A stretch of 64,000 nucleotides of DNA from Peristeroidobacter soli (GTDB taxonomy: Bacteria > Pseudomonadota > Gammaproteobacteria > Steroidobacterales > Steroidobacteraceae): the NCBI RefSeq assembly GCF_004138485.1, contig NZ_RYEV01000011.1, positions 1 to 64,000 on the forward strand. Reading direction: 5' to 3'. Shown here piece after piece: positions 2,231 through 19,439 of this stretch (the first letter of the stretch is position 1; every line of letters begins with the position of its first letter). A program made the position numbers and the translations under genes. The notes below the pieces were generated by a model. The model saw only the letters and a program-made list of their open reading frames with translations, was not told the origin of the DNA and made no database searches.

Positions 2231-2441
2231 GGTATCCGCGAGTTCAAATCAACCGCGGAAGCGCAAATCGCCGCCGGTCTGGGCATCGCCTATCGTTCCA
2301 TTCCGATCCAGGGAGCGCAGTCACTGACGGAGGAGAACGCTCGCACGCTGGACGCAGCGCTCGCGGAGGTCGGGCCTCACGTCGCTGGAAGCTTCAGTTC
2401 GCGAGCTGCTCGAAACGCGCGCGCAGTCGAACAGGCCGTAA
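2231..2441 (+). pseudogene. Relic of a DUF442-type phosphatase/sulfurtransferase
   Basis: From 2231 one frame reads a stretch typical of this tyrosine-phosphatase-like family, including AYRSIPIQGAQ and LTEENARTLDAALAEVG. At about 2379 the match jumps to another frame reading TSLEASVRELLE followed by a stop at 2439-2441, which is the usual C-terminus of the family. The segment between these parts, which carries the HCxxGxR-like catalytic loop, is missing, and so is the N-terminus. In other bacteria a DUF442 domain is part of the BigR-regulated beta-lactamase-like hydrolase involved in persulfide handling, so a relic next to a BigR-like gene fits. The family call rests on recall of motifs, without alignment. 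Confidence 0.5.
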
Positions 2442-2478
2442 GCGGACCAACTCGGCATCGAGTGCACCGGCGACAACG

Positions 2479-2871
2479 CTAGGTGCCCACCGCGCCGATC
2501 ACTTTCGCGAGGCGTCGCCGAACTTCTCCGGCCGTCGCGGCAAGCGCTGGATTTCCAGTGCGCTCCATGGCAACCACTGGATCGACGCTAGCGATCTCCA
2601 CCTGCTTCTCGGGTGTCTCGCGCACGATGACATTGCAGGGTAGGAGCACGCCAAGCTTGTTTTCCAGCGCGAGCGCTTCGTGGGCGAATGTGGGATTGCA
2701 CGCGCCGACGATCCGATATTTGGGAATATCAGCGCCGATCTTGTTCTTCAGCGTCGCTTGCACGTCGATGTCGGTCAGGACCCCGAAACCTTCCTGCTTC
2801 AGTTGCTCGACGACCGCGGCGAGCACGCTTTCGAACGATCCCGTGACGGTCTTCGCGATGTAGTAGCTCAT
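2479..2871 (-). CDS. DUF302 domain protein
   Basis: A soluble protein of 130 residues matching the DUF302 family across its length: an N-terminal part with SYYIAKTV, a central KYRIVGACNP and the later LLPCNVIVRE segment, with two cysteines that recur in this family. DUF302 proteins are commonly found next to sulfur and redox stress genes, but no reaction has been established for them. The gene starts 9 nt after the ArsR-family regulator on the same strand with GAGAGG six bases before the ATG, so the two form an operon transcribed away from the pump/oxidase genes. Function is inferred from neighbourhood only. Confidence 0.85.
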   Translation of the reverse strand: MSYYIAKTVTGSFESVLAAVVEQLKQEGFGVLTDIDVQATLKNKIGADIPKYRIVGACNPTFAHEALALENKLGVLLPCNVIVRETPEKQVEIASVDPVVAMERTGNPALAATAGEVRRRLAKVIGAVGT

Positions 2872-2880
2872 AAGTACCTC

Positions 2881-3219
2881 TCAACGTTCGCAGAATTCCC
2901 GGTGCAGCAGGCCGATGATCTCGGTCGCTACGCCCGCGGGCAGTGCATATCGAATGCTCTGCGATTCTCGCGTGGTCGCGACGATCTGCGCCTCGCGCAA
3001 TACCGCAAGGTGTTGCGAAAGGGCGGATTGGCTCAAGGCGACGCGCCCATTCAGCTCGCTCACCGACAGCGGGCCCTCGATGAGCGTACACAGGATCATC
3101 AATCGTTGCTCATTCGCCAGTGCCTTGAGCAATGCGGCAGCCCGAGCGGCATGCGGCTCGATGTCCTGCGCTGCGCCGGGGCGCAATGCACCTGTCTTCT
3201 TTCGCGGTTTGCTTGCCAA
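2881..3219 (-). CDS. bigR: ArsR-family repressor, BigR/SqrR-like persulfide sensor
   Basis: A 112-residue winged-helix ArsR regulator. The DNA-recognition helix is visible in SQSALSQHLAVLRE. Cys44 sits in RLMILCTLIEG and Cys110 in the C-terminal REFCER. BigR and SqrR have a cysteine in each of these positions and form a tri- or tetrasulfide bridge between them when exposed to hydrogen sulfide or persulfides, which releases DNA. Classical ArsR/SmtB metal-site motifs (ELCVCDL-like) are not seen. The gene diverges from the DUF2892/RND/SQR/cyd genes across an AT-rich region, the expected place for an operator controlling both sides. The sensing chemistry is inferred from cysteine conservation. 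Confidence 0.82.
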   Translation of the reverse strand: MASKPRKKTGALRPGAAQDIEPHAARAAALLKALANEQRLMILCTLIEGPLSVSELNGRVALSQSALSQHLAVLREAQIVATTRESQSIRYALPAGVATEIIGLLHREFCER

Positions 3220-3246
3220 TGTCTGCTCGAGTCTACGATCGGGTGG

Positions 3247-3293
3247 ATAGATAATAAATCAGTGTGTTCTAAATTAGCAAGTGATAATGTAAT
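3247..3293. promoter_or_regulatory. AT-rich divergent promoter/operator region for the sulfide cluster
   Basis: In otherwise GC-rich DNA, this 47-bp stretch between the divergent regulator and the DUF2892 gene is strongly AT-rich. On the minus strand TTGCTA (3275-3280) and TTATTA (3252-3257) are separated by 17 bp, a plausible -35/-10 pair that would place the transcript start about 25 bp upstream of the regulator ATG. On the plus strand GATAAT at 3283-3288 could serve as a -10, without a convincing -35. No perfect palindrome was found, so the exact operator is not resolved. Confidence 0.45.
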
Positions 3294-3432
3294 GGCTCGG
3301 CAGAACTGACCGATCTTGCTAAGGGGATGTTCTGTACGGCTAGCCGGGGTTCCGGATACGGCAGAAGGTCGCCGCGCCGTTTAATGCTCTGGCTCGATCT
3401 CAATGACTACAAACCCGTTGCAAAGGTGCCCT

Positions 3433-3633
3433 ATGGTGATCGATCGCATCGTGCTCGCGTTCGCGGGCCTCATGGTCCTGACCAGCTTGTCGCTCGCGTA
3501 CTGGGTCAGCCCGTACTGGCTGATACTCGCGGCATTCGTCGGCTTGAATCTGTTTCAAGCGGCATTCACCGGCTTCTGTCCACTGGCAATGGTGTTGAAG
3601 AAGCTGGGCTATCGGCCCGGCGCGGCGTTCTAA
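3433..3633 (+). CDS. DUF2892 (YgaP-type) membrane protein
   Basis: A 66-residue membrane protein with two hydrophobic helices (about 5-25 and 28-45) and the family signature [15 protein letters not shown]. The same domain forms the membrane anchor of the YgaP rhodanese and occurs as a stand-alone protein in sulfide-responsive gene clusters. The single cysteine in GFCPL is strongly conserved in the family. The ATG at 3433 is chosen over an in-frame ATG at 3403 because AAAGGTG lies just upstream and the product then has the usual family length. It is the first gene of the long plus-strand operon, 4 nt before the RND adaptor gene. Confidence 0.82.
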
Positions 3634-3637
3634 AGTC

Positions 3638-4699
3638 ATGCGTCGCCTCACACCATTCGTGGCGGCTGGATTGGCGTTGCTATCAGTCGGCTGCTCGCAC
3701 GAAGAGCCCGAGCGCGCGGGCGCATCGGTACCGGTGCTGGAAACGGTAGTGATATCGCCGCGCCCCACGCCGATAGAGCGGCTCCTGGACGGCACCGTCG
3801 AGGCAGTGAATCAGGGGACGGTGGCGGCGCAAACCTCCGGGCGCGTGACCGAGATTCTGTATGACGTGAACGATTTTGTGCCGGCGGGCGCCGTCATCAT
3901 GCGTTTGCGGGCGACGGAACAGCAATCAGGCTTGAAGCAGGCGGAGGCGGCGCTGCAAGAGGCCCGGGCGCGCGAGCTGGAAGCACAGACGAGATACAAA
4001 CGTGTCGCCGACATGTATGAGCGCCAGGTGGTGCCTAAAGCCACGTTCGATGAGGCCACGGCTGCTCGCGACTCCACAGTGGCTCGCCTGGCGGCGGCGC
4101 GTGCGGCATTGGATACGGCGAAAGAGGGCGTCAGCTACACGGAGATTCGAGCGCCATACGCGGGCGTCGTGACCAAACGACTCGTCGAGCCCGGGGAATC
4201 CGTACATCCGGGCACACCGTTGATGAGCGGATTGTCGTTGCAGTATCTGCGCGTCTCGGTGGACGTGCCCCAGTCCAGCATCGATGCGATCCGACGTATC
4301 AAACAAGCCGCGGTTTATATCGACGGCCGTCGCGTCGAGGTCAGTAAGCTGACCGTCTTTCCCGAAGCCGCCAAGCCGTCGAACACGTTTCGCGCGCGAT
4401 TGGAACTGCCGGAGAACGCCGCCGATCTGTATCCCGGGATGTTCGTCAAAGTGGGCTTCGTCACCGGCGAGGCTCGACGTTTGTTGGCGCCACTGAGCTC
4501 AGTGGTCGAGCGCGGTGAGGTCACAGCATTGTACATCGTGAACGACGACGGCCGCGCCTCGCTGCGTCAGGTGCGATTGGGTCATAAGTTCGAGAAAGAC
4601 GTTGAAGTGCTTGCGGGGCTCGCCGAGGGTGAGCGGGTTGCTCTGGATCCGGTGGCCGCGATGAAGCAGCTGCGGCGTGCCGAGGACCTCGATTCATGA
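3638..4699 (+). CDS. RND efflux periplasmic adaptor (membrane fusion) lipoprotein
   Basis: A 353-residue membrane-fusion protein. The lipobox LLSVGC gives a lipidated Cys19 after a short signal peptide. A biotinyl-lipoyl-like half motif follows (TSGRVTEILYDVNDFVPAGA), then an alpha-helical hairpin at about 95-165, the second lipoyl half (IRAPYAGVVTKRLVEPGE), a beta-barrel domain and a membrane-proximal domain. It would bridge the inner-membrane permease and the TolC-like channel encoded downstream. Its stop codon overlaps the permease start by 4 nt. The sequence does not show the exported substrate; placement in a sulfide-responsive operon is the only hint. Confidence 0.92.
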   Translation: MRRLTPFVAAGLALLSVGCSHEEPERAGASVPVLETVVISPRPTPIERLLDGTVEAVNQGTVAAQTSGRVTEILYDVNDFVPAGAVIMRLRATEQQSGLKQAEAALQEARARELEAQTRYKRVADMYERQVVPKATFDEATAARDSTVARLAAARAALDTAKEGVSYTEIRAPYAGVVTKRLVEPGESVHPGTPLMSGLSLQYLRVSVDVPQSSIDAIRRIKQAAVYIDGRRVEVSKLTVFPEAAKPSNTFRARLELPENAADLYPGMFVKVGFVTGEARRLLAPLSSVVERGEVTALYIVNDDGRASLRQVRLGHKFEKDVEVLAGLAEGERVALDPVAAMKQLRRAEDLDS

Positions 4700-7600
4700 G
4701 CGAGGAACTCGGGTTCAGCGGGCGGATCGCGCGTCGATTCCTTGGCAATCAGCTGACGCCGCTGCTCGCATTGGCGGCGCTGTTGCTTGGAGTGTTCGCG
4801 GTTCTGGTCACGCCCAGAGAGGAAGAGCCGCAGATCGATGTGACTTTCGCGAACGTGTTCGTGCCGTTCCCCGGCGCTTCGGCCGTGCAAGTCGAAAGTC
4901 TGGTAGCGACGCCGATGGAGCAGGTGCTCGGGGAAATTGCCGGCGTGGAGCACATTACGTCGATGTCGCGTCCGGGCATGGCCGTGCTCGGCGTGCAGTT
5001 CAAAGTGGGCGAGCCGCGCACGGAGGCCATCGTACGCCTGTATAACGCCATCTATTCCAATCAGGACTGGCGGCCGGCGAACGCTGGCATCCTGCCTGCG
5101 CTGGTCAAGCCCAAAGGCATCGACGATGTGCCGATCGTCACTCTGACCTTGTGGACCGCCGACCCGCAGCGTGGCAGTCATGAGCTCGGGCTCGTGGCGC
5201 GCTCGATTCAAACCGAGCTCAAACGTGTTGCCGGCACTCGTAACATCTATGCGATCGGCAGCCCGCGGAACACCGTGCGAGTCGAGCTCGATGCACAGAA
5301 GCTGGCGGGCTATGACCTCACGGTCGGCGAGCTGACCGCGGCCCTGCAGGCAACAAATATTGTTCAGCACATCGGCTCCGTGGTCGGCGACGATCGCGTA
5401 TCGGTGGTGGACGCCGGGCAATTCCTCGCAGGGCAGGAAGACGTTGCGTCGCTCGTAGTCACCGCGCGCGACGGCCGACCGGTTTATCTGAGCGACGTCG
5501 CCGACGTGAGCCAGGGCGCCGAGCAACCGGTTTCGTATGTTTCTTTCGGCACCGGTCCCGGAGCGGCGTCGCGCGGCCTGCCGGAAGTCGAGCATGCGCC
5601 GGCCGTCACCATTGCGATCTCCAAACAGCCGGGAGCCAATGCGATCGACGTCGCCGACGAGGTTCTGCGTCGCGTCGAGGGATTGAAGGGAACATTCATT
5701 CCGGAAGGCGTGGAAGTCACCGTAACGCGCAACTATGGCGTGACCGCAAATGACAAAGCACAAAAGCTGATTCAGAAGTTGCTGTTCGCGACCGCGTCGG
5801 TGGTGCTGCTGGTGGTGCTGGCCATGGGACGGCGCGAGGCGCTGGTCGTCGGCGCGGCCGTCATCGTCACCCTGGCGGCCACGCTGTTCGCCTCGTGGGC
5901 TTGGGGATTCACGATCAATCGTGTCTCGTTGTTCGCCCTGATCTTTTCCATCGGCATCCTGGTGGACGACGCCATCGTGGTGGTGGAAAACATTCATCGA
6001 CACATGCGCCTCGACGCCGGTCCGCTCACGGAGTTGATTCCAAGAGCGGTGGACGAGGTCGGCGGTCCAACCATCCTGGCCACGCTGACCGTCATCGCGG
6101 CGTTGCTGCCGATGGCGTTCGTCAGCGGTTTGATGGGCCCCTACATGAGCCCGATTCCCATCAATTCGAGCATGGGCATGCTGATCTCACTCGCGGTGGC
6201 GTTGGTGTTCACGCCATGGCTGTGCCGCAAGTTGCTCAGTGGACATGCCGAGCGTTCGGCGGAAGAGGACAGCGGGTTGCATCGATTGTTCACCCGACTG
6301 TTGCGCCCATTCCTGGATGCTGAAAACGGTCGGCGCCAGCGACATCGATTGTACGGGGGCGTCGCCGTCGCCATCGTGCTCGCGGTCGCGCTGGCAGGAG
6401 TGCGTCTGGTGGTGCTGAAGATGCTGCCCTTCGACAACAAGTCCGAGTTTCAGGTGGTGTTGAATCTGCCGGAGGGCACGACGCTCGAGACGACCGCGCG
6501 CGTGCTCGACGAGCTCGCACATCGGATCGATCAGGTGCCGGAAGTGAGCGACTATCAGGCTTACGCCGGGACCGCAGCGCCGATCAACTTCAACGGATTG
6601 GTGCGGCAATATTATTTGCGGGAAAGCCCGGAACTGGGCGATCTGCAGGTGAATCTGGTCGACAAACATGAGCGCGACCGGCAGAGCCACGAGATTGCGC
6701 GGGCCGTGCGAGCGGATCTCACCGCCATCGGCGAGCGCTTCGGCGCATCGGTACAGGTGGTGGAAGTCCCGCCCGGGCCGCCGGTGCAAGCGCCGCTGGT
6801 GGCGGAAATCTACGGGCCGAGCTACGAAGCACAGCGACACGTGGCTTCGGAGGTGCGCAAGCTCTTCGCAGCCACGCCAGACATCGTCGACGTCGACGAC
6901 AGCCTGGAGACACCCGCTCGACGTTTCGTGGTGACCGTGGATCGTCAGAAGGCGGCGCTGCTCGGCGTATCACAAGAGCAGATCGTCCAGACCCTGGCAA
7001 CGGCGCTGCACGGCGCCGATACAACTTATATCCATGCCGGCCACGAGCGGCAGCCCATTCCGGTGCGCCTGGAGCTGCCGATCGCGGACAAGGCCAGTCT
7101 CGGCTCGATGACGGCGTTGCAGGTTCGTAGTGCCAGCGGCATCGCGATCCCGCTATCGGAGCTGGTGCGGATACAGACGACGGAGTGGGACGGCGCCATT
7201 TATCACAAGGATCTGCTGCCAGTCGTGTATGTCACGGGCGATATGGCGGGGCGGCTGGACAGTCCGCTGTACGGCATGTTCTCGATGGTCGGCAGCATCT
7301 CACGCGAGCCACCCGGCGGCGCGCCGATCGCGCAGTACTTCATCAGGCAGCCCGACGATCCACTCGCGACCGCGGTCAAATGGGATGGCGAGTGGCAGAT
7401 CACCTATGAAACATTCCGCGACATGGGGCTGGCGTACTCGGTCGGGTTGATCTGCATCTACCTGCTGGTGGTCGCGCAGTTCGGCTCTTATTTTCTGCCG
7501 CTGATCATCATGGCGCCCATCCCTTTGACCATCATCGGCGTCATGCCCGGGCACGCCCTGCTGGGCGCGCAGTTCACCGCGACTTCCATGATCGGCATGA

Positions 7601-7905
7601 TCGCGCTGGCCGGCATCATCGTGCGCAACTCAATATTGTTGGTGGACTTCATCGATGCCGAGGTGCGCACCGGCCGCACGTTGGAGGATGCAGTCATGCG
7701 GGCCGGCGCGGTGCGGGCCAAGCCGATCGCACTGACCGCACTCGCGGCCATGATCGGCGCGTTCTTCATCCTCGACGATCCTATCTTCAGCGGGCTCGCG
7801 GTATCGCTGATCTTCGGCATCCTGGTGTCGACCGCGCTTACGTTGATCCTGATTCCAGTCCTGTACTACGCGTATCTGCGGCGTCGAACGTTGCAAGGAG
7901 CATGA
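4696..7905 (+). CDS. RND efflux inner-membrane permease
   Basis: A 1069-residue AcrB-type permease with the duplicated RND layout: TM1 near residues 18-38, a periplasmic porter domain, a cluster of TM helices around 350-530, a second large periplasmic domain from about 570, and a last TM cluster from about 905. TM4 carries the adjacent aspartates Asp424 and Asp425 (GILVDDAIVVVENI) that relay protons in this family, so it should be an active proton antiporter. It overlaps the adaptor by 4 nt upstream and touches the SQR gene downstream. The substrate is unknown; the HME metal-pump signature was not obvious. Confidence 0.95.
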   Translation: MSEELGFSGRIARRFLGNQLTPLLALAALLLGVFAVLVTPREEEPQIDVTFANVFVPFPGASAVQVESLVATPMEQVLGEIAGVEHITSMSRPGMAVLGVQFKVGEPRTEAIVRLYNAIYSNQDWRPANAGILPALVKPKGIDDVPIVTLTLWTADPQRGSHELGLVARSIQTELKRVAGTRNIYAIGSPRNTVRVELDAQKLAGYDLTVGELTAALQATNIVQHIGSVVGDDRVSVVDAGQFLAGQEDVASLVVTARDGRPVYLSDVADVSQGAEQPVSYVSFGTGPGAASRGLPEVEHAPAVTIAISKQPGANAIDVADEVLRRVEGLKGTFIPEGVEVTVTRNYGVTANDKAQKLIQKLLFATASVVLLVVLAMGRREALVVGAAVIVTLAATLFASWAWGFTINRVSLFALIFSIGILVDDAIVVVENIHRHMRLDAGPLTELIPRAVDEVGGPTILATLTVIAALLPMAFVSGLMGPYMSPIPINSSMGMLISLAVALVFTPWLCRKLLSGHAERSAEEDSGLHRLFTRLLRPFLDAENGRRQRHRLYGGVAVAIVLAVALAGVRLVVLKMLPFDNKSEFQVVLNLPEGTTLETTARVLDELAHRIDQVPEVSDYQAYAGTAAPINFNGLVRQYYLRESPELGDLQVNLVDKHERDRQSHEIARAVRADLTAIGERFGASVQVVEVPPGPPVQAPLVAEIYGPSYEAQRHVASEVRKLFAATPDIVDVDDSLETPARRFVVTVDRQKAALLGVSQEQIVQTLATALHGADTTYIHAGHERQPIPVRLELPIADKASLGSMTALQVRSASGIAIPLSELVRIQTTEWDGAIYHKDLLPVVYVTGDMAGRLDSPLYGMFSMVGSISREPPGGAPIAQYFIRQPDDPLATAVKWDGEWQITYETFRDMGLAYSVGLICIYLLVVAQFGSYFLPLIIMAPIPLTIIGVMPGHALLGAQFTATSMIGMIALAGIIVRNSILLVDFIDAEVRTGRTLEDAVMRAGAVRAKPIALTALAAMIGAFFILDDPIFSGLAVSLIFGILVSTALTLILIPVLYYAYLRRRTLQGA

Positions 7906-7907
7906 CC

Positions 7908-9188
7908 ATGGCACACGTGATCGTGATTGGGGCTGGCATCGGCGGCGTGCCCGCAGCGTACGAATTGCGCAAGAAACTCGGCAAACAGCACGCGGTCACG
8001 TTGATCGGCGCCTCGCCGTACTTCGAGTTTACCCCGTCGAATCCATGGGTCGCCGTGGGCTGGCGTCAATGCGAGCAGACACGTGTCGCCTTACAAGAGC
8101 CGTTGCAAGCCAAAGGCGTGCAATGGATTGCCGAACGCGTCGATCGCATCGATGCGGATACCCGGCGCTTGCAACTGAGCGGCGGTCGCGAGCTCGACTA
8201 CGATTATCTGGTGATCGCCACCGGACCGAAGCTGGCGTTCGACGAAGTCCCGGGACTTGGGCCTGCCGGTTTCACGCAATCGGTCTGCACGCAGGAGCAT
8301 GCGGCGCAGACGTGGCAGAAGTATCAGGAGTTCATCAAGGATCCCGGGGCGATCGTGATCGGCGCTGCCGCCGGCGCGAGCTGCTTCGGGCCGGCGTATG
8401 AATTCGCGATGATCGTGGATGCCGACCTGCGCAAACGCAAGCTGCGCGATCGGGTGCCGATCACGTTCGTCACGAGCGAGCCGTATATCGGACACATGGG
8501 GCTCGGTGGCGTCGGCGACAGCAAAGGACTGATGGAATCGGAGCTGCGCCAGCGCCATATCAAGTGGCTGACCAACGCCAAGATCACGCGCGTCGAGAGT
8601 GGTTCGATCCTGGCCGTCGAGCACGACGAAGACGGCAAGCCGAAGAAGGAGCACGAAGTACCGTTCAAGTACGCCATGGTGATCCCGGCGTTCAAAGGTG
8701 TGGACGCGGTCGCTGCCGTGCCGGGATTGTGCAATCCACGCGGTTTCGTGCTGATCGATATGCAGCAGCGCTCGACGAAGTATCCAAACATTTTCTCCGC
8801 AGGCGTCTGTGTGGCGATCCCACCCGTGGAGGCGACACCGGTACCCACCGGCGCGCCCAAGACAGGTTACATGATCGAGTCGATGGTCAGCGCGCTGGTC
8901 GAGAACATCGCGGCGGATATCGACGGCAAATCCGCCACAGCCCAAGCGACCTGGAATGCCGTCTGCCTCGCCGACTTTGGAGACACGGGCGCGGCCTTCG
9001 TCGCGTTGCCGGAGATCCCACCGCGCAACGTCACGTGGGCTGGCGTGGGGAAGTGGGTGCATCTGGCGAAGATTGCCTTCGAAAAGTATTTCCTGCGCAA
9101 GGTCCGCACCGGCTCGGTGACGCCGATCTATGAGCGGTATGTGCTGAAGCTGTTGGGCATCGTTGCGCTCAAGGAGCGTCCTCAATGA
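7908..9188 (+). CDS. sqr: Sulfide:quinone oxidoreductase (type I-like)
   Basis: A 426-residue FAD enzyme that oxidises sulfide and passes electrons to membrane quinone. The N-terminal dinucleotide-binding motif is VIVIGAGIGG. The three redox cysteines known from Acidithiobacillus ferrooxidans SQR (128, 160, 356) are matched by Cys127 (SVCTQEH), Cys159 (ASCFGPAYEF) and Cys353 (CLADFGDTG). The quinone/FAD segment PTGAPKTGYMIESM is intact and an amphipathic C-terminal region (WVHLAKIAFEKYFL) suits membrane attachment. The ATG at 7908 is used because AGGAG lies 7 nt before it; the ATG at 7902 overlaps the permease stop but is too close. It lies between permease and channel genes of the pump. Confidence 0.92.
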   Translation: MAHVIVIGAGIGGVPAAYELRKKLGKQHAVTLIGASPYFEFTPSNPWVAVGWRQCEQTRVALQEPLQAKGVQWIAERVDRIDADTRRLQLSGGRELDYDYLVIATGPKLAFDEVPGLGPAGFTQSVCTQEHAAQTWQKYQEFIKDPGAIVIGAAAGASCFGPAYEFAMIVDADLRKRKLRDRVPITFVTSEPYIGHMGLGGVGDSKGLMESELRQRHIKWLTNAKITRVESGSILAVEHDEDGKPKKEHEVPFKYAMVIPAFKGVDAVAAVPGLCNPRGFVLIDMQQRSTKYPNIFSAGVCVAIPPVEATPVPTGAPKTGYMIESMVSALVENIAADIDGKSATAQATWNAVCLADFGDTGAAFVALPEIPPRNVTWAGVGKWVHLAKIAFEKYFLRKVRTGSVTPIYERYVLKLLGIVALKERPQ

Positions 9189-10486
9189 GATGGCCGGCGC
9201 GAGCGGGGAGCGTATTTCTCGCCATGGCGGCGGCGTCGGTCTGCATGTCATCTTCGGCGGAATCGCTATCCGAAGCATGGCAGATGGGACTGAGCAGAAA
9301 CATGGAATTCGCAGCCGTTGCGGCGGAGGCGGAGAGCGCTCGTGCCGCCGAAAGCGCGGCGCGTGCCGAACGGTGGCCGTCATTGACCGCTGCCGCCAGT
9401 TACACGCAATTCGATAACGCTCCGCAGCTCGACATCGTCGCGGCAGGGATGGCGTTGCAGGCTCCGATCTTTCCAGGTCAGTCCTACGCATCCGGTGGCG
9501 TACAGTTGAAGTTGCCCTTGTACACGAGCGGTCGCCTCTCGGCGCAGATCGGCGCCGCACATAAAGTGGCGATGGGCGCGGCGGATTCCGAGGCGGCCGC
9601 GCGCTCCGGCTTACGCATGGCGATCGCGACGGCCTATGTGAACGTGCTCCGGTCGCAGCGCCTGCTGCAAGCGGCGCAGTCATCGGTGACGAGTCTGAAG
9701 GCTCATGCGAGCGACGTGAAGCTCATGGTCGAGCGTGAGTTGGTGACCCGCAGCGACTTGTTGGCGGCGCAAGTGGCCCTGGCAAATGCGGAACAGCTGC
9801 GCGTGCAGGCTGACAACGGCGTGGCGTTGGCCTACGCAGGCTACAACCGGCTCGTTGGCGAACCGAGCGAGCGCACGCCGGAGCTCGACGCCGTGTTGCC
9901 CATCGAGCGGGCGCTCAGCGAACAACCACTGGATCAACTGATTCAGAGCGCGCTGAATTCACGCAGTGAAATTTCGGCGCTGGGCGCCCAGGCCGATGCG
10001 TTGTCGCTGCAGTCGGATGCACAGCGCGCCCTATTGCTGCCGCAGCTGGCGCTGTCCGGCGGCTATACCTATGTCGAGAACGAGATCCTCGACCGGCAAA
10101 GCTTCGCGGCGGTCGGCATCGGCGTGAGCTGGAATCTTTTCGACGGTGGCGTGGTGCGTAATCGCAGCGAATCGCTGCGGCGTGCCAGTCGCGCGGCTCA
10201 GCACCGGCTCGATGATTTGCGATCCCAAGTACAGCTCGAGGTTCGGCAAGCCTGGTTGGATGTGCGTGCGGCTCAGGCAAGAATCGCCGCACTACGAGAA
10301 GCCAGAGCGCAGGCCGAAGAGAATCTGCGCATGTCGCGGGAGCTTTACGGCGGCGAGCTTGGCACCAATACGCAGGTCTTGGACGCCGTCACTTTGCAGA
10401 TCACCGCGACCAGCAATCACGACAATGCGGTGCTGGACGAAGCGCTGTCACTGCTGGCGTTGGAGCGCGCGGTGGGCAGGTTATGA
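9185..10486 (+). CDS. TolC-family outer-membrane efflux channel
   Basis: A 433-residue outer-membrane efflux protein with a signal peptide (about 1-25, ending in an Ala/Ser-rich stretch). Two structural repeats of long coiled-coil helices and beta strands are visible, with repeat motifs such as VTRSDLLAAQVALANAEQ in the first half and LREARAQAEENLRMSREL in the second. It supplies the exit duct for the RND pump. The start codon overlaps the SQR stop by 4 nt and its own stop overlaps the CydP start by 4 nt, so it is embedded in one translationally coupled transcript. Confidence 0.92.
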   Translation: MRWPARAGSVFLAMAAASVCMSSSAESLSEAWQMGLSRNMEFAAVAAEAESARAAESAARAERWPSLTAAASYTQFDNAPQLDIVAAGMALQAPIFPGQSYASGGVQLKLPLYTSGRLSAQIGAAHKVAMGAADSEAAARSGLRMAIATAYVNVLRSQRLLQAAQSSVTSLKAHASDVKLMVERELVTRSDLLAAQVALANAEQLRVQADNGVALAYAGYNRLVGEPSERTPELDAVLPIERALSEQPLDQLIQSALNSRSEISALGAQADALSLQSDAQRALLLPQLALSGGYTYVENEILDRQSFAAVGIGVSWNLFDGGVVRNRSESLRRASRAAQHRLDDLRSQVQLEVRQAWLDVRAAQARIAALREARAQAEENLRMSRELYGGELGTNTQVLDAVTLQITATSNHDNAVLDEALSLLALERAVGRL

Positions 10487-10686
10487 GCGCGGCACACGGC
10501 GATGATTGGCGCAGCTGGCTGCGACGGAAGATCGGCTGGTTGCTGCTGGTCAAACTGCTCGGCTTGCTGTTGCTGCGCTCGATGTTCTTCTCCGGCGAGC
10601 ATCGCCAGAGCGTCGATGAGGACAGCCTGGCGCAGCGCCTGGCGATCGAGCAAGCCAACAACCAACGAGAAGCGAGGTCACCGTGA
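10483..10686 (+). CDS. cydP: CydP, small cytochrome bd-associated membrane protein
   Basis: A 67-residue protein with one hydrophobic helix (about 18-37, IGWLLLVKLLGLLLLRSMFF) followed by an HRQSVD segment, the pattern of CydP, the putative small subunit encoded directly upstream of cydAB in several proteobacteria. It overlaps the channel gene before it and cydA after it by 4 nt each, which ties the efflux half of the operon to the oxidase half. Its role in assembling or stabilising the bd oxidase is inferred from the family. Confidence 0.8.
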   Translation: MSAAHGDDWRSWLRRKIGWLLLVKLLGLLLLRSMFFSGEHRQSVDEDSLAQRLAIEQANNQREARSP

Positions 10687-12263
10687 TCGATTTCGAAGTC
10701 GTCAATCTGTCGCGCCTGCAGTTCGCGCTGACCGCGCTGTATCACTTCCTGTTCGTGCCGCTGACGCTCGGGCTGTCGATGATCCTGGTGATCATGGAGG
10801 CCACATACGTGATGACCGGCAAGGTCATCTGGAAACAGATGACGCAGTTCTGGGGCGTGCTGTTTGGGATCAACTTCGCCATGGGCGTTGCGACCGGCAT
10901 CACCATGGAGTTTCAGTTCGGCACCAACTGGGCCTATTACTCGCACTACGTCGGCGACATTTTCGGCGCGCCGCTCGCGATCGAAGGACTGATGGCGTTC
11001 TTTCTGGAGTCCACGTTCGTCGGGCTGTTCTTCTTCGGCTGGAACCGGCTGTCGAAAGTGGGGCATCTGATCGTCACCGGGCTGGTGGCGCTCGGTTCGA
11101 GCCTGTCTGCGCTGTGGATTCTGATCGCGAATGCCTGGATGCAGAATCCGATCGGCGCGGAGTTCAATTACGAAACCATGCGAATGGAGCTCACCTCGTT
11201 CGGCGCGGTGATCTTCAATCCGGTCGCGCAGGCGAAATTCGTCCACACGGTTGCCGCAGGCTATGTGGTCGGGTCGATCTTCGTGCTCTCGATCAGCGCG
11301 TGGTATCTGCTGCGCGGTCGTAACGTCGAGGTCGCACGGCGCTCGCTCGCGGTGGCCGCGAGTTTCGGCCTCGCGTGCTCGCTGTCGGTGGTAGTGCTGG
11401 GCGACGAGTCCGGCTACGTCGCCAGCGAGAACCAGAAGATGAAGATCGCCGCAATCGAAGCGGCGTGGCACACGGAGCCGGCGCCGGCCGGATTCACATT
11501 GTTCGGCGTGCCCGATGTGGCCGAGCGGCGCACGCATGCGGAAGTGAAGGTGCCGTGGCTGCTCGGGCTGATCGCGACGCGCTCTATCGACGGTGAGGTC
11601 GCTGGAATCACGGAACTCGTGGAGCACGCCAAGCAGCGCGTGCGTAATGGCATGCAAGCGCACGGCGCCTTGCAAAGACTGCGAGCCGATCCAAACGACA
11701 GCGTGGCGCGTGCCGAGTTCGACAAGCATCGGAGCGATCTCGGCTACGGATTGCTTCTGCTGCGCTATACAACCGATCCTGCCAAGGCCGACGAGGCCCT
11801 GATCGAGCGCGCGGCCTGGTCGACCGTGCCCAATGTTCCGGTGCTGTTCTGGAGCTTCCGGATCATGGTGGCGCTGGGCTTCTTTTTCATTTTCCTGTTC
11901 GGCGCGACCTTCTATCTGGCCTCGCGCCATCGCCTCGATCGCCACCGCTGGTTCCTGCGACTGGCATTTTTCAGCTTGCCCTTGCCCTGGATCGCCGCCG
12001 AGCTGGGTTGGATCGTGGCCGAATACGGTCGACAGCCGTGGGCGATCGATGGACTGTTGCCGACGTTTCTCGGTGTCTCCACGACGTCGGCGGCCAACGT
12101 CTGGATGTCGCTGCTGGGCTTCGTCGTGTTCTACACCACGCTCGCTGTCGTCGATATTTATCTAATGCTCCGAGTGGTGCGTCGAGGGCCGGACGGGCTC
12201 GGCTACTGGCCGCAACCGTCATCCACTTCCCAACCTGCGCCGGCCGCGGCCGCCGTTTCCTGA
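10683..12263 (+). CDS. cydA: Cytochrome bd quinol oxidase subunit I
   Basis: A 526-residue multi-helix membrane protein. The heme ligands of E. coli CydA (His19, His186, Met393) are matched by His21, His188 and Met395, and the quinol-loop motif GRQPW is present. Length equals the long Q-loop subfamily. The enzyme oxidises quinol and reduces oxygen to water; bd oxidases are known to resist sulfide, unlike heme-copper oxidases. The GTG start overlaps the CydP stop. Placement in an operon with SQR suggests it takes the electrons SQR puts into the quinone pool. Confidence 0.97.
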   Translation: MIDFEVVNLSRLQFALTALYHFLFVPLTLGLSMILVIMEATYVMTGKVIWKQMTQFWGVLFGINFAMGVATGITMEFQFGTNWAYYSHYVGDIFGAPLAIEGLMAFFLESTFVGLFFFGWNRLSKVGHLIVTGLVALGSSLSALWILIANAWMQNPIGAEFNYETMRMELTSFGAVIFNPVAQAKFVHTVAAGYVVGSIFVLSISAWYLLRGRNVEVARRSLAVAASFGLACSLSVVVLGDESGYVASENQKMKIAAIEAAWHTEPAPAGFTLFGVPDVAERRTHAEVKVPWLLGLIATRSIDGEVAGITELVEHAKQRVRNGMQAHGALQRLRADPNDSVARAEFDKHRSDLGYGLLLLRYTTDPAKADEALIERAAWSTVPNVPVLFWSFRIMVALGFFFIFLFGATFYLASRHRLDRHRWFLRLAFFSLPLPWIAAELGWIVAEYGRQPWAIDGLLPTFLGVSTTSAANVWMSLLGFVVFYTTLAVVDIYLMLRVVRRGPDGLGYWPQPSSTSQPAPAAAAVS

Positions 12264-12273
12264 AGGTGCCGCC

Positions 12274-13410
12274 ATGTTCGACTATGAAACATTGCGTCTG
12301 ATCTGGTGGGCGATTCTCGGCGTGTTGCTCATCGGCTTCGCGGTGATGGACGGCTTCGATCTCGGCGTCGGCGCGATCTTTCGTTTCGTCGGCCGCAACG
12401 ATGAGGAGCGCCGCGTGCTGCTGGAGACCGTGGAGCCGGTGTGGGAGGGCAACCAGGTCTGGTTCATTCTGGGCGGCGGTGCTGCGTTCGCGGCGTGGCC
12501 ATTGCTGTACGCCGCGGCGTTCTCGGGGCTATATCTGGCACTGTTCCTGGTGTTGATCGCGCTCATCTTGCGGCCGGTGGGTTTCACTTTCCGAGGTCAC
12601 GTAGATGATGCGCGCTGGCGCAATGTCTGGGACTGGGCGCTGTTCGTCGGCGGCGCCGCGCCGGCGCTGCTGTTCGGTGTCGCCTTCGGCAATCTGTTGC
12701 TGGGCATTCCATTTCATTTCGATGAGTTGAGGCGGCCCGTGTACACGGCGGGCTTCTTCAACCTGCTGCATCCGTTCGCATTGTTGGCCGGGATCGTCAG
12801 CCTGAGCATGCTCGTGATGCACGGTGCGACGTATGCCGCGCTGAAGATCGACCGTTCCCTGGCTTCGCGGGCCGCGGCGGTCGGCAGGGTAGGGGCGCTG
12901 GTGTTGATCGTCGCGTTCGTAATGGCCGGGTTCTGGATCGCCACCGGCATCGACGGGCATCGGATCGTGTCCGAGATCAACACCGCCGGACCTTCCAACC
13001 CGGTGGCGAAAGGCGTCGAGTTGATACGCGGTGGCTGGCTTGAGAACTATCGCGCGCACGCGTCGTTATGGATCGTTCCCGGACTGGCGTTGGCGATGGC
13101 GCTCGTGACCGAGCGCCTGCTGAACCGCGGACGTTACGGTTTGGCATTCCTGAGCAGCGCGCTAGCAGTGGCGGGGGTGATTCTCACCGCGGGCATCGCG
13201 ATGTTTCCTTTCCTCATGCCATCCTCGATCCAGCCGGGTCACGGGCTGACGATTTGGGATGCCTCCAGCAGCGCGAAGACGTTGGGAATCATGCTGGTGG
13301 CGGTCATCGTGTTCTTGCCGATCGTGCTGGCGTATACGAGTTGGGTGTTTCGCACGTTACGCGGCGAGGTAACGCTCGAGCACGTGCGGCGTCAGTCCGG
13401 ACTCTACTGA
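12274..13410 (+). CDS. cydB: Cytochrome bd quinol oxidase subunit II
   Basis: A 378-residue membrane protein with the N-terminal CydB signature (WWAILGVLLIGFAVMDGFDL) and the conserved WEGNQVW segment, and about eight or nine hydrophobic helices. It is the partner of CydA in the heterodimeric oxidase. It starts 10 nt after cydA and is followed by CydX. Length and motifs are normal for the family. Confidence 0.97.
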   Translation: MFDYETLRLIWWAILGVLLIGFAVMDGFDLGVGAIFRFVGRNDEERRVLLETVEPVWEGNQVWFILGGGAAFAAWPLLYAAAFSGLYLALFLVLIALILRPVGFTFRGHVDDARWRNVWDWALFVGGAAPALLFGVAFGNLLLGIPFHFDELRRPVYTAGFFNLLHPFALLAGIVSLSMLVMHGATYAALKIDRSLASRAAAVGRVGALVLIVAFVMAGFWIATGIDGHRIVSEINTAGPSNPVAKGVELIRGGWLENYRAHASLWIVPGLALAMALVTERLLNRGRYGLAFLSSALAVAGVILTAGIAMFPFLMPSSIQPGHGLTIWDASSSAKTLGIMLVAVIVFLPIVLAYTSWVFRTLRGEVTLEHVRRQSGLY

Positions 13411-13434
13411 TCCATTAAGTGAAGAGGCAGTCCT

Positions 13435-13554
13435 ATGTGGTACTTCTCCTGGATTCTCGGCTTGGGCTTGGCCCTGGTGTTCGGCGTGCTCAATGCCATG
13501 TGGTATGAGTTCGGTGAGCGCGACGAGCAGCATGGCTTTGGGCCCGAGGCATAG
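13435..13554 (+). CDS. cydX: CydX-type small subunit of cytochrome bd
   Basis: A 39-residue single-helix protein starting MWYFSWILGLGLALVFGVLN and continuing with a short acidic tail containing WYE. This is the CydX/CbdX pattern: Met-Trp-Tyr-Phe-x-Trp-Ile-Leu-Gly, one helix, then a charged C-terminus. CydX binds CydA and stabilises the di-heme site. It lies 24 nt after cydB with GAAGAGG upstream of the ATG, in the usual position at the end of cydABX. Confidence 0.93.
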   Translation: MWYFSWILGLGLALVFGVLNAMWYEFGERDEQHGFGPEA

Positions 13555-13565
13555 GGGGATTGATC

Positions 13566-14003
13566 ATGCATCCCTATCCCCATGTGTATCGAGTGAGTGC
13601 CAAGGCCGTGCTGAGCGGCAATGTCACGGTCGAATCGCCCGGCCTGCCGCCGTTGCAGACTGCGCCGCCGGTGGAGTTCGATGGCCCCGGCGATGCCTGG
13701 TCGCCCGAGACGTTGCTCTGTGGCGCCATCGCGGATTGTTTCATCCTGACTTTCCGGGCGGTCGCGCGCGCCGCGAAGTTCGAGTGGTCGAAGTTAGAAT
13801 GTCACGTCGACGGAACCCTGGAGCGCGTCGAGGGCGTAGCGCAGTTCACGAAGTATGCCGTCCATGTCACGCTCACGCTGGCAGGGAACGGGGATGAGGC
13901 GAAAGCCAAATCTCTGCTGGAGCGCTCGGAGCGCGGCTGCTTGATCTCGAACTCCGTGCGGGGTGAACGCACCTTATATATGGAGGTGCTGTCCGAGGTG
14001 TGA
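13566..14003 (+). CDS. OsmC-family thiol-dependent peroxidase-like protein
   Basis: A 145-residue OsmC/Ohr-fold protein. The two redox cysteines of the family are present as Cys58 (AIADCFILTF) and Cys125 (ERGCLISNSV). OsmC-family enzymes reduce organic hydroperoxides, and some act on or sense sulfane sulfur. The ATG at 13566 follows an AGGGGG ribosome site by 7 nt; an upstream TTG at 13560 is in frame but less well placed. It lies 11 nt after CydX, so it is probably the last intact gene of the sulfide/oxidase operon. Role in persulfide clearance is inferred from context. Confidence 0.85.
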   Translation: MHPYPHVYRVSAKAVLSGNVTVESPGLPPLQTAPPVEFDGPGDAWSPETLLCGAIADCFILTFRAVARAAKFEWSKLECHVDGTLERVEGVAQFTKYAVHVTLTLAGNGDEAKAKSLLERSERGCLISNSVRGERTLYMEVLSEV

Positions 14004-14107
14004 TTCATATTTATCATGCACGGTCGATGCCGGTGGATGCGCTCGGGCTCGAACGGCTACTACTTCGCATCAGCGACGGCTGTGTGCGAGCGGGCGTCCA
14101 CAGCTGA

Positions 14108-14653
14108 ATGAGCAACCTTCTGGACGTGGCTGCCCTCCTTGGAGCGATACTGCTGGGCTATCTGCTCTACCTCGTGCTGTTCGAACGCGGCGTATTCTAC
14201 AAAACCAGCACAGCGCTCCATGGGCTGAGCGAATCGCAGCGCCTGCGGCTGCTCAGCGCCGTGTTGGGGACGCCAGCACAGCGCATCGATTCGATTCGCG
14301 TCCTTCGAGAGGGCGCCGACCTCTATGACGCTCAGTTTGCCGCGATGGCTGCGGCGAAACACTCCGTTCACCTCGAAGTGTATATCTACTATCCGGGGCG
14401 GATTGCGGAGGCCTATCTTGCTGCCCTCTGCGAGCGCGCCAGATGTGGGGTGCGCGTGCGTGTGGTGATCGATGCGATCGGCAGTCTGCGCCGTGCCGGG
14501 CGCCGTCGGTACGGCGTGCTTCTCGAGGCAGGGGTCGAGATCTTTGAATACAACTCGGCGAGTTATCGAACGTCATCAGTGAGATGTCGTAGTCCCTCAG
14601 CTAAGAGGGAACACGTGCCTCATGCGCGGATGTCCCGGTTCGTTACGCGATGA
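14108..14653 (+). pseudogene. Truncated cardiolipin-synthase/phospholipase D-like gene
   Basis: The first 150 or so codons match the N-terminal part of PLD-superfamily cardiolipin synthases: one membrane helix, then VHLEVYIYYPGRIAEAYLAAL, RVRVVIDAIGS and LLEAGVEIFEYNS. Family similarity stops at about 14560, before the first HxKxxxxD catalytic motif, and the frame ends in an unrelated arginine/serine-rich tail. Neither HKD motif is present, so it cannot be active. A downstream universal-stress gene is also broken, suggesting that deletions have hit this stretch. Confidence 0.8.
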
Positions 14654-14701
14654 GAGGCACTAGTATCTTCGACAGCAATCGCAGTCGTCGGGCGGACCGC
14701 C

Positions 14702-15011
14702 ATGTATCGGAAAATACTCGTCGCAGTCGATGGCAGCACGACCTCGCTGCGGGGGCTGGATGAAGCGATGCGCGTAGCGAAGGCGACCGGGGGATGCCTC
14801 GGAGGAGATCATCGCTCAGGCCAAGGACTGGCCCGCGGACTTGATCGTACTCGGAACACACGGCCGCCGTGGACTGACGCGACTGGTCATGGGCAGCGAC
14901 GCGGAGCGAGTGTTGCGGCGATCGCCGGTTCCGGTATTGATGGTTCGAGGAAATTGGCTAGACCGCGGCGAGCCTGTTCTGTCTGAATCCAGGAGATTGA
15001 ATCATGAGTAA
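14702..15011 (+). pseudogene. Universal stress protein relic with internal deletion
   Basis: The first 30 codons read a UspA N-terminus (YRKILVAVDGSTTSLRGLDEA). At about 14796 the reading must shift frame to recover the family C-terminus: ASEEIIAQAKDWPADLIVLG, THGRRGLTRLVMGSDAE and VPVLMVRGN, ending at a stop at 15009-15011. About 70 residues that the intact paralogue at 18791-19270 has between these blocks are missing, so a deletion removed the middle and broke the frame. The relic's 3' end overlaps the start of the next gene (15004). Confidence 0.85.
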
Positions 15012-15288
15012 GTCACAAATTGCGTCTGGACCGATCCAGGTCCTGATGGCGGCAATCATGTTCGCCGGCGCTGCATTCGCAGCAGAAGTGCCACCGGCCG
15101 CCGACCCGGTTCCATCCAAGGAAGTGCGTGCGAAGATGGCGGCAGCGCACGAGGCGATGGCGGCCTGCTTACGCTCCGATAAGAGCGTTGCCGATTGCCG
15201 TAACGAAATGCAGACGACCTGCAGGAAGATGCACGGCGATGGCTGCATGATGATGAGCATGGGAATGCATGATCACATGCAGAAGTAA
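15004..15288 (+). CDS. Secreted Met/His/Cys-rich small protein, possible metal binder
   Basis: A 94-residue protein with a signal peptide (cleavage probably after AGAAFA near residue 27), leaving a mature chain of about 67 residues. The mature part has four cysteines (in AACLRSD, ADCRNE, TTCRKM and GDGCMM) and ends in a Met/His-rich tail (MHGDGCMMMSMGMHDHMQK). Such tails bind soft metals such as copper or silver in other proteins; four cysteines suggest two disulfides in the periplasm. No named family was recognised. It has a GGAG ribosome site upstream and follows the Usp relic on the same strand. Confidence 0.7.
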   Translation: MSKSQIASGPIQVLMAAIMFAGAAFAAEVPPAADPVPSKEVRAKMAAAHEAMAACLRSDKSVADCRNEMQTTCRKMHGDGCMMMSMGMHDHMQK

Positions 15289-15307
15289 TAGCCCAGGTGG
15301 CGTCGCC

Positions 15308-18300
15308 TTACCGCGGATGGGACGCCAGTTGCTGCAAGGAAAGTGAAACCTCATGCAGCAGATCGGTGTCGCGACAAGGCATGCCCTCATCCTCGGCGGT
15401 CGCGATCTCCACGGCGTCGTATTGCCAGTGGCGCAGGATGTCGATCTTCTGAGCGTCCGGCAATGAGTCACATTTCAATAGCGCTGCGGGCGAGCCAAAC
15501 GTCGAGCCCGGATCGAGCTGCGGCTCTTCAATGTTCGGCTGGCCGCCGTCGTTTCGATCGGCGGGCATGCCAGTTGAGTCGGGCTCGCCGCAGTGTTCGA
15601 GGATGTGGCGCCGGGCGGCATCGCGCAGTTGGATCGTCGCTGCGAAGGCATTGCGTGCGCCAGGTGGTTTGATTGGAGCGCCGACATGAACGGCGACAGG
15701 TCCGCGTCGTGGTAGCCACTGGCCATCGCGAAGTAGGGCACGGGCACCGTGTAGCGCAACCGGAACGATGGGCTGGTCAGCTTCAACTGCCGCGGCAAAT
15801 GCCCCCAGATGGAATGCCAACAAGCCAGGCACGGCAACGAATGTTCCTTCGGGAAAGATAATGCACGACTCGCCTTGTGACGCCAGCGTCGCCAATCGAT
15901 GCGCATCTTCGACGCCGGCACGAACATCGAAGCGTTCGACAAACACAACGCCGAACCGGCGCAGGAAGGTGCCGACAATCGGCACGCGAGCGAGCTCGCG
16001 TTTGGCGACGAAGCGGCAGGCCTGCGGAAGGGCCGCCATGAGTAGCACGCCGTCGAGATAGCTGGCGTGATTCGCCACGATGATTGCACCTTTTGCTTCA
16101 GCAGCAGCGTCGAGCCGATGGACGGTGAGCCGGACGCCGGCCATGCGGAGGAACGAGCGAGCTGCGCGATGGCCTATCGACCAGATTGTTTGTGCCGGCA
16201 GTGGCAGAAGGGAGAGCAGGAACGTAGTGCCGCCGAGCAAGCCGAACACCGCCCAGAAATACGCGCCGTACAGAAGATCCAATACTCGGTGAACGGCGCG
16301 TTGTGACATGGGACGCGCGGTGCTCAACGCGAGATGCAGCAGCTGCACTCCCGTGCCGTGCTGGTGCATCGGTCCATAGTGCTTCGATTCGTAAATTTCG
16401 CGGCTGGCCGCCCGGCGAATCTTGCCGCTCGAGGTCTTGAGGACAGTGTGGGGGGCTGCTAACGCGACGTCGTCGGGCGGTTCGCCGAGCAGCCCGAGTG
16501 TAGTTGCAATGATCGACTGTCGCAGGCTCTCACGATCCTCGGCGCGCTGTAGATGCGTCTCGGCGAGCACGATGACGCGCTCGGTGCCAGTAGCGGTATC
16601 CGTGCTACCGAATACTGCGACACAACCTTTGCGCACACCCGGGATGGCGCCGATCGCAGACTCCAACTCATCCGGGTGAATGTGGCGGCCGGCACGAATG
16701 ATGATGTCCTTGATGCGGCCGGTGACGTAAATTTCGCCGCCTGTCATGTAGGCACGATCGCCGCTATCCAACCAGTCATCGTGTATTAGCTTCGCAGTCG
16801 CCTCTGGGTTTCGGTAGTAGGCTTGGGTAGCGGACGGCCCGCGAAACTCCAAGCGGCCCTCGTGACGTTCCCCCACAGGCCGGCCGGCGTCGTTGACGAT
16901 GCGAACATCGTGCCGTGCGAGGGGGCGGCCGCACGACACGAAGGACAGTGTGTTGGCGCCTGCGATGACAGGAGCCGCGATGCCTTGTCGCACGAACGAT
17001 TCGCGGTCGATCACATCGATCAGCGGACCGCGTTCCAGAGGTGGCACAGTCAGGCCGACCGAGCATTCCGCAAGACCGTAAACCGGAGTCAAAGCACTCC
17101 GACGTAAGCCACATCGCGCGAACCTGCTCTGAAATTTCACGAGCGTGTCCGGCATGACCGCTTCCGCGCCGTTCATGGCAATACGCCATGTGCTCAGGTC
17201 CAATCCGGCGAGGTCCCGATCAGTCACGCGTTTCAGGCATAGCTCGTACGCAAAGTTGGGCGCGGCAGAGAGCGTCCCCCGGTGCCGATGGATTGCTTCC
17301 AGCCAGCGCAGCGGACGGGAGAGGAAGGAGATCGGCGACATCACGACCAGCGGCAGGCCGTGATACAGCGTTCCAAGCCATGCGCCAATCAGTCCCATGT
17401 CGTGATACAGCGGCAGCCAACTCACGAACACATCTTCCCGTCGCACCGCGAGCGCGTTTCCTAACGCTGTGATGTTGGAGAGCACGTTGGCGTGGCTCAG
17501 CACGACGCCTTTGGGCTGCCCGGTGCTGCCCGATGTGTACTGGAGCAGGGCAGTCGAGCCGTGGTCTACATCGACGTGTATCGGTTCAGCGTGCGCGCAT
17601 CGCAGTTCATCGGCGGTCGCAATTCCGTGCAGCGACGGCACATGCATGCGCAGAACGGCCGCGAGCCGGTGCATCGCCGCTGTAGTAATGAGAGTGTCGG
17701 CCATAGCATTTGTGAGAATCCCCGCGTGCCTGCGCACATGCTCTTCGATCTGGCTCAGTCGATTGGGAGGATAAAGCGGCACAGGCACCGCGCCCGCGAG
17801 CAGAACTCCGAAGAACGAGCCAAAGTAGTCGCGACCCGTTGGCAGCATCAACGCGACAGTGTCGCCGCGCCGGACTCCTTGATGTTGAAGGCCGCCGGCC
17901 ACCGCGCAGGCGTCGTTCCACAGTTGTTCGTAAGTGATGGTCTCCTCACCGGTATCCAGGCACACCGTGATTTGCGGGAAGTCGGGATGATGCTCACGAT
18001 GCCAGCGAAGCACCTGCCCAAGAGTGTCGATGTTCGCTGGAGGCGAGGCGACCGGATAGGGCGCCGGCGTGCGTTCAGCGGGCTGACGCGAGAGCGCTTC
18101 GAGAGACTGAGCTCCTTTAAGCGCGGCGGCGATATCACCCAGCGTTTCGGCGGTCTCGAACAACGAGTCGGGCAATCGAACGCGCAACTCTTGCTCGATG
18201 CGCGCGAACAACTCTACGCGAGCGAGACTGTCGAGGCCGAGGTCATGATCGAGTGTGCTGTCGAGGGTTAACGGCAGCGAATCGGCTTCCACCTGATGGA

Positions 18301-18367: not shown

Positions 18368-18369
18368 AA

Positions 18370-19270: not shown

Positions 19271-19439
19271 CGGATCGAACACTTATTACCTCGACGTAGT
19301 GACCCTGGGCGGAATTTCCCGGAGCGCGGTCAAACAGGCATTCGTCGGTAGTACGGCGGAGTGCGCTCTCGAGCGGCTACCATGCGATGCGCTGGTCGTC
19401 AAAACGTAGAGGTGAATGGATCGCCGAGGACCATTGATT

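Follow-up and report, generated by a model that had tools for sequence, protein, structure and literature searches.

Described systems and the locus of Peristeroidobacter soli

Several described systems resemble parts of the locus reported here, a putative sulfide-defence operon in a stretch of 64,000 nucleotides from Peristeroidobacter soli (Steroidobacteraceae; contig NZ_RYEV01000011.1, positions 1 to 64,000; the window hereafter). The operon combines genes for a resistance-nodulation-division (RND) pump, a sulfide:quinone oxidoreductase (SQR) and a cytochrome bd oxidase, and faces a repressor gene of the ArsR family. In Azospira suillum PS, the SQR-RND operon Dsui_3440-3443 holds an RND adaptor, SQR, a pump and a small protein, as the window does; it was highly expressed under H2S and was indicated by transposon fitness data (PMC5358917). 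Its locus tags match the order adaptor-SQR-RND-DUF2892 that was found in L059, L071 and L089, three of the loci compared in this work, and from this gene order we infer that the A. suillum pump belongs to the RND clade of the window. Unlike the window, the operon as described in the available part of that report has a different order and comprises no TolC, cyd or OsmC genes, and no regulator or operator is mentioned there. The BigR operons of Xylella, Agrobacterium and Acinetobacter baumannii likewise place sulfide detoxification genes under a two-cysteine ArsR protein (PMC5823870, PMC7315123). They encode a sulfur transferase/dioxygenase or PDO2, together with proteins of the YeeE/YedE type. 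In contrast to the window, the available sections of these two papers mention neither an RND pump nor SQR nor a bd oxidase for them.

A neighbourhood survey described sulfane-sulfur-responsive ArsR regulators with sqr, pdo, rhodanese and RND efflux genes in their vicinity (PMC12423496). This arrangement is similar to that of the window, but the survey, in the part available, is without cyd genes and gives no operator motif in its section 2.1. In Ferrovum JA12, SQR and rhodanese genes adjoin those of cytochrome bd, the same SQR-bd pairing as in the window, whereas the accessible text links no pump or regulator to them (PMC4725956). A. baumannii cydAB is induced by sulfide and its authors predict a link between SQR and CydAB through the quinone pool; unlike in the window, the locus numbers of cydAB are apart from those of the sulfide operons (PMC7315123). 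In an Escherichia coli mutant that had lost the SqrR/BigR homologue YgaV, cydAB read counts went up, and in contrast to the window no such joined operon was seen in the portion of that report at hand (PMC9774250). Biofilms of Acidithiobacillus ferrooxidans on pyrite had raised levels of three RND proteins and of a bd oxidase (PMC6450195). The literature already has a sulfide-induced operon of SQR and RND genes, SQR next to genes for bd, induction of cydAB by sulfide and RND genes adjacent to such regulators, and the locus is not wholly new. An earlier reading of the same DNA (the original prediction) knew of no BigR operon that includes an RND pump and a dedicated bd oxidase, a claim of novelty that was too wide given what is visible of two of these reports (PMC12423496, PMC5358917). 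In the open-licence literature that was searched, no report of an operon combining all three, pump, SQR and bd, came up, and none of an operator link between this RND clade and cyd. Based on the comparisons below, we propose with moderate confidence that the window holds a one-operon sulfide/persulfide defence regulon in which sulfur releases the repressor, SQR feeds cytochrome bd, the pump exports sulfur and the whole arose by joining of separate units.

The ten genes occupy 3403-14003 on the plus strand. They encode a DUF2892/YgaP-like membrane protein (3403-3633; PF11127; translation may instead begin at an internal ATG, at 3433), the RND periplasmic adaptor (3638-4699; TIGR01730 188 bits, cut-off 94.9; lipobox-like Cys19), the RND permease (4696-7905; PF00873, ACR_tran, 506 bits), SQR (7902-9188), a TolC-family outer membrane factor (9185-10486; PF02321, OEP), a CydP-like small subunit (10483-10686), CydA (10683-12263), CydB (12274-13410), CydX (13435-13554) and an OsmC-family protein (13560-14003; PF02566; Cys54, Cys60, Cys81, Cys127), whose gene was called from a TTG with an ATG two codons further in. 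The gaps are, in gene order, +4, -4, -4, -4, -4, -4, +10, +24 and +5 nt. Four of the five 4-nt overlaps had been listed in the original prediction, which missed the fifth at RND/SQR (7902-7905). Genes, coordinates and strands were as it had given them, and so was the divergent two-cysteine ArsR gene facing the ten genes (2881-3219, minus strand; Cys44 and Cys110, numbered from a TTG start). Its span left out the DUF302 gene on the downstream side of the regulator (2479-2871, minus strand; PF03625, 81 bits), which follows the regulator gene after 9 nt and may belong to the regulon. GC content is even across the operon (0.58-0.64; window 0.616). Judging from its recurrence in relatives, the gene set would be more than a chance assembly.

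The regulator is an ArsR/SmtB winged-helix protein (HTH_5, 47 bits). Its best solved relatives are HlyU (88 bits), BigR (68) and SqrR (62), and both of its cysteines align with those of HlyU. The NCBIfam equivalog model for BigR (NF040642) gave 89 bits, below the cut-off of 155, so the protein is not BigR proper. Together with HlyU as best solved relative, this makes 'HlyU/BigR/SqrR subfamily' a safer label than the 'BigR-like' used previously, of which the two cysteines and the subfamily hold. In line with this subfamily, an AT-rich palindrome, the putative operator, is by comparison kept beside the regulator's own gene. The regulator looks like a single putative sulfur-sensing switch for the operon.

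Permease, adaptor and outer membrane factor are all encoded and would together form a tripartite RND pump. SQR is similar to the A. ferrooxidans enzyme over residues 3-426 (559 bits to 3sz0), and three cysteines align, Cys129, Cys161 and Cys355, which we take to be the catalytic ones; the genome has one SQR match at E <= 1e-60. The oxidase is of the bd-I type: CydA scores 690 bits to E. coli bd-I, and CydB (TIGR00203) and CydX (TIGR02106 60.3 bits, cut-off 31.6) are over their cut-offs. CydA His21, His188 and Met395, presumably the haem ligands, fit those of E. coli at a two-residue offset. The CydP-like gene is present as claimed, but the model does not bear out its name (NF045611 21.1 bits, cut-off 29.6), which rests on size and position. 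CydA is the sole PF01654 match in the genome, beside six matches to the haem-copper oxidase family.

A putative operator and the pump unit in relatives

The palindrome TATATTAGCAATTGCTAATATA is common to the sequences upstream of 68 distinct two-cysteine ArsR genes, the one in the window included. In two-fold held-out scoring, 58/68 regions exceeded 14 bits against 0.0 per 68 in shuffles, a result flattered by related sequences present in both halves. Between regulator and operon of the window, two putative operator boxes form an overlapping tandem (3255-3291). With a position weight matrix trained without the window, box 1 (3255-3276) scored 22.5 bits and box 2 (3270-3291) 26.3 bits, and the next-best score in the 64-kb window was 8.8 bits. 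Allowing up to 3 mismatches, the consensus matched the whole genome a single time, at 3270-3291. A reversed control pattern matched 2 genome places, so the count is not in excess, and the sole true match sits at the operon. The tandem also contains CTAAATTAG, a core common to the fragment footprinted with Vibrio cholerae HlyU, a 35-mer in which the accessible part of the report places it (PMC4330345). On the minus strand, 3280-3251 reads as a promoter-like site for the regulator and shares sequence with both boxes. It was the 1 site that the promoter scan of 2400-15400 found, against 3.2 in shuffles; the scan gave no plus-strand promoter-like site in that range, operon start included, and is uninformative. 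The original prediction had treated the operon as a single coupled unit. Comparison supports this view of one regulatory unit, through the five overlaps and the one tandem operator, which within 3 mismatches is unique in the genome.

The same RND clade was followed in a sample of 120 genomes of the family, 62 of which, other than that of the window, carry it at 63 places; all 63 were examined. An ArsR gene stands upstream of RND in 38 of the 50 loci with at least 2.6 kb upstream, a count that includes a subclade with only the second cysteine, and the operator is present in 35 of the 50. Most family loci displayed have both ArsR cysteines, whereas just the second was found in a subclade that includes L241, L255, L256 and L290. 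Where enough sequence was available on both sides, DUF2892 was found in 39/41 loci and SQR near RND in 28/41; TolC was found in 27 of the 45 loci with at least 3 kb downstream. A persulfide dioxygenase gene, mostly together with rhodanese, lies between regulator and pump in 5/50 loci and gives independent support for a sulfur role. As judged from these counts, the core unit is regulator, DUF2892, adaptor, RND, SQR and TolC. The genome search for the same gene order that had been suggested with the original prediction thus recovered the core in the family, while the cyd join proved rare there.

We also observed a second RND subclade in the family (L241, L255, L256, L257, L289, L290), in which the ArsR neighbour was found with only the second cysteine position. 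No box was present at L241, L255, L256 and L290; L257 has one of 19.3 bits.

In a wider sample from the class, a box of at least 17 bits was present about 1.1-1.5 kb before RND, that is before the adaptor, in 31/47 loci of the clade. These came from 49 of the 75 RND-close places (the 29 best after that of the window and 20 more), of which two were dropped for a short upstream region. Loci of the window's family were among the upstream regions used to train the operator weights, and removal of the one training overlap left 30/46. Where the stretch has no ArsR hit the count was 29/45; as the stretches had 1.5- or 4-kb flanks, this means none close by. Shuffles gave 0.1. As a control, the sister RND group (43-48% identity) was scored at 20 of its 58 places and had the box at 0/20 loci, with five reaching 13 bits and none 17, at a mean GC of 0.53 vs 0.60. 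In a named set the box was found in 34/69 loci, a further 11 of the 80 being too short. By record name, the clade includes sulfur oxidisers such as Thiocapsa, Thiohalocapsa, Allochromatium and Thiobacillus.

A plasmid search returned 52 records, with RND relatives of about 43-59% in the 40 listed. Six plasmid regions were analysed: DUF2892 was near the pump in 6/6, an ArsR gene in 5/6 and the box in 2/6. Both regions with the box have a 45% RND, so the box is not exclusive to the RND clade of the window. A near-DNA plasmid search gave only short conserved stretches among the matches listed. At one plasmid locus of Methylocella tundrae (L035), about 14 kb hold cydA, cydB, cydX and a partial cydD together with two ArsR genes, DUF2892, DUF302, a pump of the RND type (45%), a gene similar to SQR (58%) and a 22.4-bit box.

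Joining of cyd to the pump unit

Pump and cyd genes are joined in two other loci of the family. L240 has regulator, DUF2892, adaptor, RND, SQR, CydP and CydABX, with no TolC found in this locus, and L241 has adaptor, RND, DUF2892, TolC, SQR, CydABX, rhodanese and OsmC. The sequence of L254 ends within CydA directly after SQR. Outside the family, similar pump-cyd layouts occur in L105 (Oxalobacteraceae, no SQR found in the locus) and L067 (Rhodanobacter); in L066, L074 and L088 cyd is nearby on the opposite strand. Co-location was also counted in 274 genomes of the class, that of the window excluded, with CydA rows below about 400 bits dropped, two RND candidates scored per genome and chance figures that assume a 3-Mb genome. 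Among the matches listed, SQR and CydA were at most 15 kb apart in 10 of the 31 genomes with both (about 0.3 expected). This count, the protein families and the single CydA of the genome make the SQR-quinone-bd path of the original prediction possible. In seven of the ten SQR-CydA loci (L187, L189-L192, L195, L196), cyd and SQR are consecutive on one strand and the stretch has no RND of the clade.

Trees were used to ask how often the joining happened. In the CydA tree of 37 rows, from which the partial CydA of L254 is absent, a minimum of three changes on branches with good support is required to account for the five joined genes, which are no more clustered than shuffled labels. CydA of the window groups with family members whose cyd stands apart, and the RND tree places the window, L240, L241 and L105 each next to other loci. 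The pattern fits repeated joining; one early pump-cyd join followed by many losses may also explain it. An acquired cyd island was considered and rejected, as CydA of the window sits with family members in a 5-row clade (100/99) and the GC content of the operon is even.

The putative operator was also found before cyd. A box lies at most 1.3 kb upstream of CydA in 7/43 genes (41 with full upstream), against about 0.005 per gene expected from unassigned boxes. A tally of 166 boxes from the same comparison is biased by the choice of loci for these genes. The seven loci are L242, L074, L088, L192 and L196, plus L233 and L236 with distant CydA types. The last two, from two family genomes of which one is in the window's own genus, have boxes of 29.6 bits (at 2570) and 22.9 bits (at 834) before a CydA type 36-38% identical to that of the window. 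Pump and, in some relatives, cyd would thus share a putative regulon, as proposed originally. A congener (G276) illustrates this best. Its cyd operon, DUF2892-CydP-CydABX (L242), encodes a CydA 83% identical to that of the window and has a 28.5-bit box, its pump operon (L182) has a box of 29.2 bits, and its genome has two pattern places in total. No SQR match at E <= 1e-40 was found in this genome. The strict regulon of the congener appears to consist of the pump operon and the cyd operon, and the window looks like two such units of one regulon joined, with one box place left.

Proposed mechanism, alternatives and flanking genes

At rest, the repressor would occupy the tandem operator at 3255-3291 and block its own promoter and the ten-gene operon. 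Upon sulfide entry, sulfane sulfur would build up, bridge the two cysteines and free the repressor, as in HlyU, BigR and SqrR. SQR would turn sulfide into sulfane sulfur and reduce quinone, a reaction known for its family, and cytochrome bd would reoxidise the quinol with oxygen while sulfide blocks the haem-copper oxidases. The E. coli relative of cytochrome bd tolerates sulfide, and the oxidase of the window is probably sulfide-tolerant as well. The adaptor-RND-TolC pump would expel sulfur species, most likely polysulfide or a low-molecular-weight persulfide; this cargo is the weakest step. DUF2892 and OsmC, also among the weakest steps, may handle sulfane sulfur or peroxide. The operon itself may have arisen when a pump/SQR unit was joined to a cyd unit; in the congener, the pump operon and the cyd operon stand apart, each under the same operator. 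Two associations favour a sulfur cargo: that of the box with the clade in the class sample, and that of SQR with the pump, which are neighbours in 28/41 family loci. As relatives carry the same switch before the parts separately, the pump is a good candidate sulfur exporter. A bolder version, which we put forward only tentatively, is that the RND clade, found across the class and in many cases behind the HlyU/BigR-type operator, is a dedicated sulfane sulfur exporter that here would form a closed circuit with SQR and bd under the repressor's only strict site in the genome.

Several observations weigh against the proposed sulfur-defence operon. Of 39 family loci that extend 7 kb or more downstream, only two (L240 and L241) have CydA within 9 kb of the pump. 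Among the matches listed in the class sample, RND and CydA were at most 15 kb apart in 0 of the 20 genomes with both, which shows the full trio to be rare as far as gene positions tell. RND-SQR adjacency in that sample is 3/45 (about 0.45 expected), a much looser association than the family of the window shows. The box is missing before 36/43 CydA genes, so cyd would be an optional regulon member. There is no depletion of terminator-like sites in the region (14 vs 8.8 in shuffles), and HlyU is reported, in the available part of its paper, without a strict consensus site (PMC4330345). The only cysteines of the permease are Cys510 and Cys920, and the 33 clade-specific permease positions examined gave no indication of a cargo. 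A persulfide dioxygenase-like gene on another contig, 55% identical to that of L170, implies that export is not the only sulfane sulfur sink. With the CydD model, no gene of the genome exceeded the cut-off of 435 bits, the best ABC exporter reaching 282; the model was over its cut-off in 5/14 control genomes. Deletion of the A. suillum SQR-RND operon left the sulfide oxidation rate during perchlorate reduction unchanged, according to the part of the report available (PMC5358917).

The authors of that study preferred metal-sulfide export for the pumps raised under H2S (PMC5358917), and the pump of the window might by analogy export metals, metal sulfides or metal-thiol complexes mobilised by sulfide, with SQR and bd handling sulfide itself. 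Growth of Allochromatium vinosum on pyrite raises an RND adaptor and a CzcA-type pump, which may or may not be of this clade, in the accessible data (PMC11267869). In a plasmid of Rhizobium rhizogenes (L036), a metal-sensing repressor and a cation diffusion facilitator are encoded about 2-5 kb behind an SQR-DUF2892-adaptor-RND run, a further point against a sulfur cargo. The permease, however, fits the multidrug-type model better than CusA/CzcA (484 vs 256 bits, both below cut-off), and the subfamily of the regulator senses sulfane sulfur. We consider a metal cargo less likely, though a serious alternative. In relatives, the same regulator and box repeatedly precede genes for SQR, persulfide dioxygenase and rhodanese, which speaks against a repressor that answers redox or oxygen limitation through a cysteine disulfide, in an operon that would be mainly a low-oxygen switch with SQR and pump as passengers. 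Bd oxidases do serve low oxygen. BigR has been described, in the part of the literature available, as a redox switch, and the accessible sections of two further papers describe the YgaV homologue of E. coli as a regulator of numerous anaerobic genes (PMC9774250) and report that Hyphomicrobium denitrificans SoxR responds both to oxidation and to polysulfide (PMC10451225). Even so, we give the redox switch a low probability.

It is similarly improbable that a general toxicant pump was recruited to the sulfide response for cross-protection, without any sulfur cargo. The solved relatives of the permease are distant (best 243 bits) and, among those listed, mostly multidrug-type RND transporters, which would suit such a pump, as would the effect of YgaV on antibiotic tolerance seen in the available part of that report (PMC9774250). 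Set against this are the association of the box with one RND clade in the class sample (31/47 vs 0/20 in the sister group) and the sulfur oxidisers named in the clade, neither of which indicates the cargo. Finally, cyd could have its own promoter and merely sit behind tolC. The overlaps of 4 nt at TolC/CydP and CydP/CydA, joins that recur on separate branches of the CydA tree, and standalone cyd operons with the same box in some relatives make chance neighbourhood very unlikely, despite the few joined loci in the family (2/39) and plus-strand terminator-like matches, consensus matches only, inside tolC, cydA and cydB.

To our knowledge, the exit of SQR-made sulfane sulfur from non-storing cells and the natural cargo of most environmental RND pumps are open points. 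Both could be tested directly with an RND clade whose putative persulfide-sensor operator is also that of SQR and bd. In addition, the locus would be a case of a respiratory oxidase brought under a sulfur sensor by operon joining.

Behind OsmC, the stretch 14108-14986 has apparent gene remnants: in a 181-aa frame, similarity to cardiolipin synthase models is limited to about 90 residues, and a 94-aa frame matches the universal stress protein family over its first 31 residues. Further downstream, positions 15308-18418 encode a 1036-aa protein that combines phosphopantetheine, AMP-binding and acyltransferase domains, and a pyruvate phosphate dikinase-like gene lies nearby at 19416-21857.

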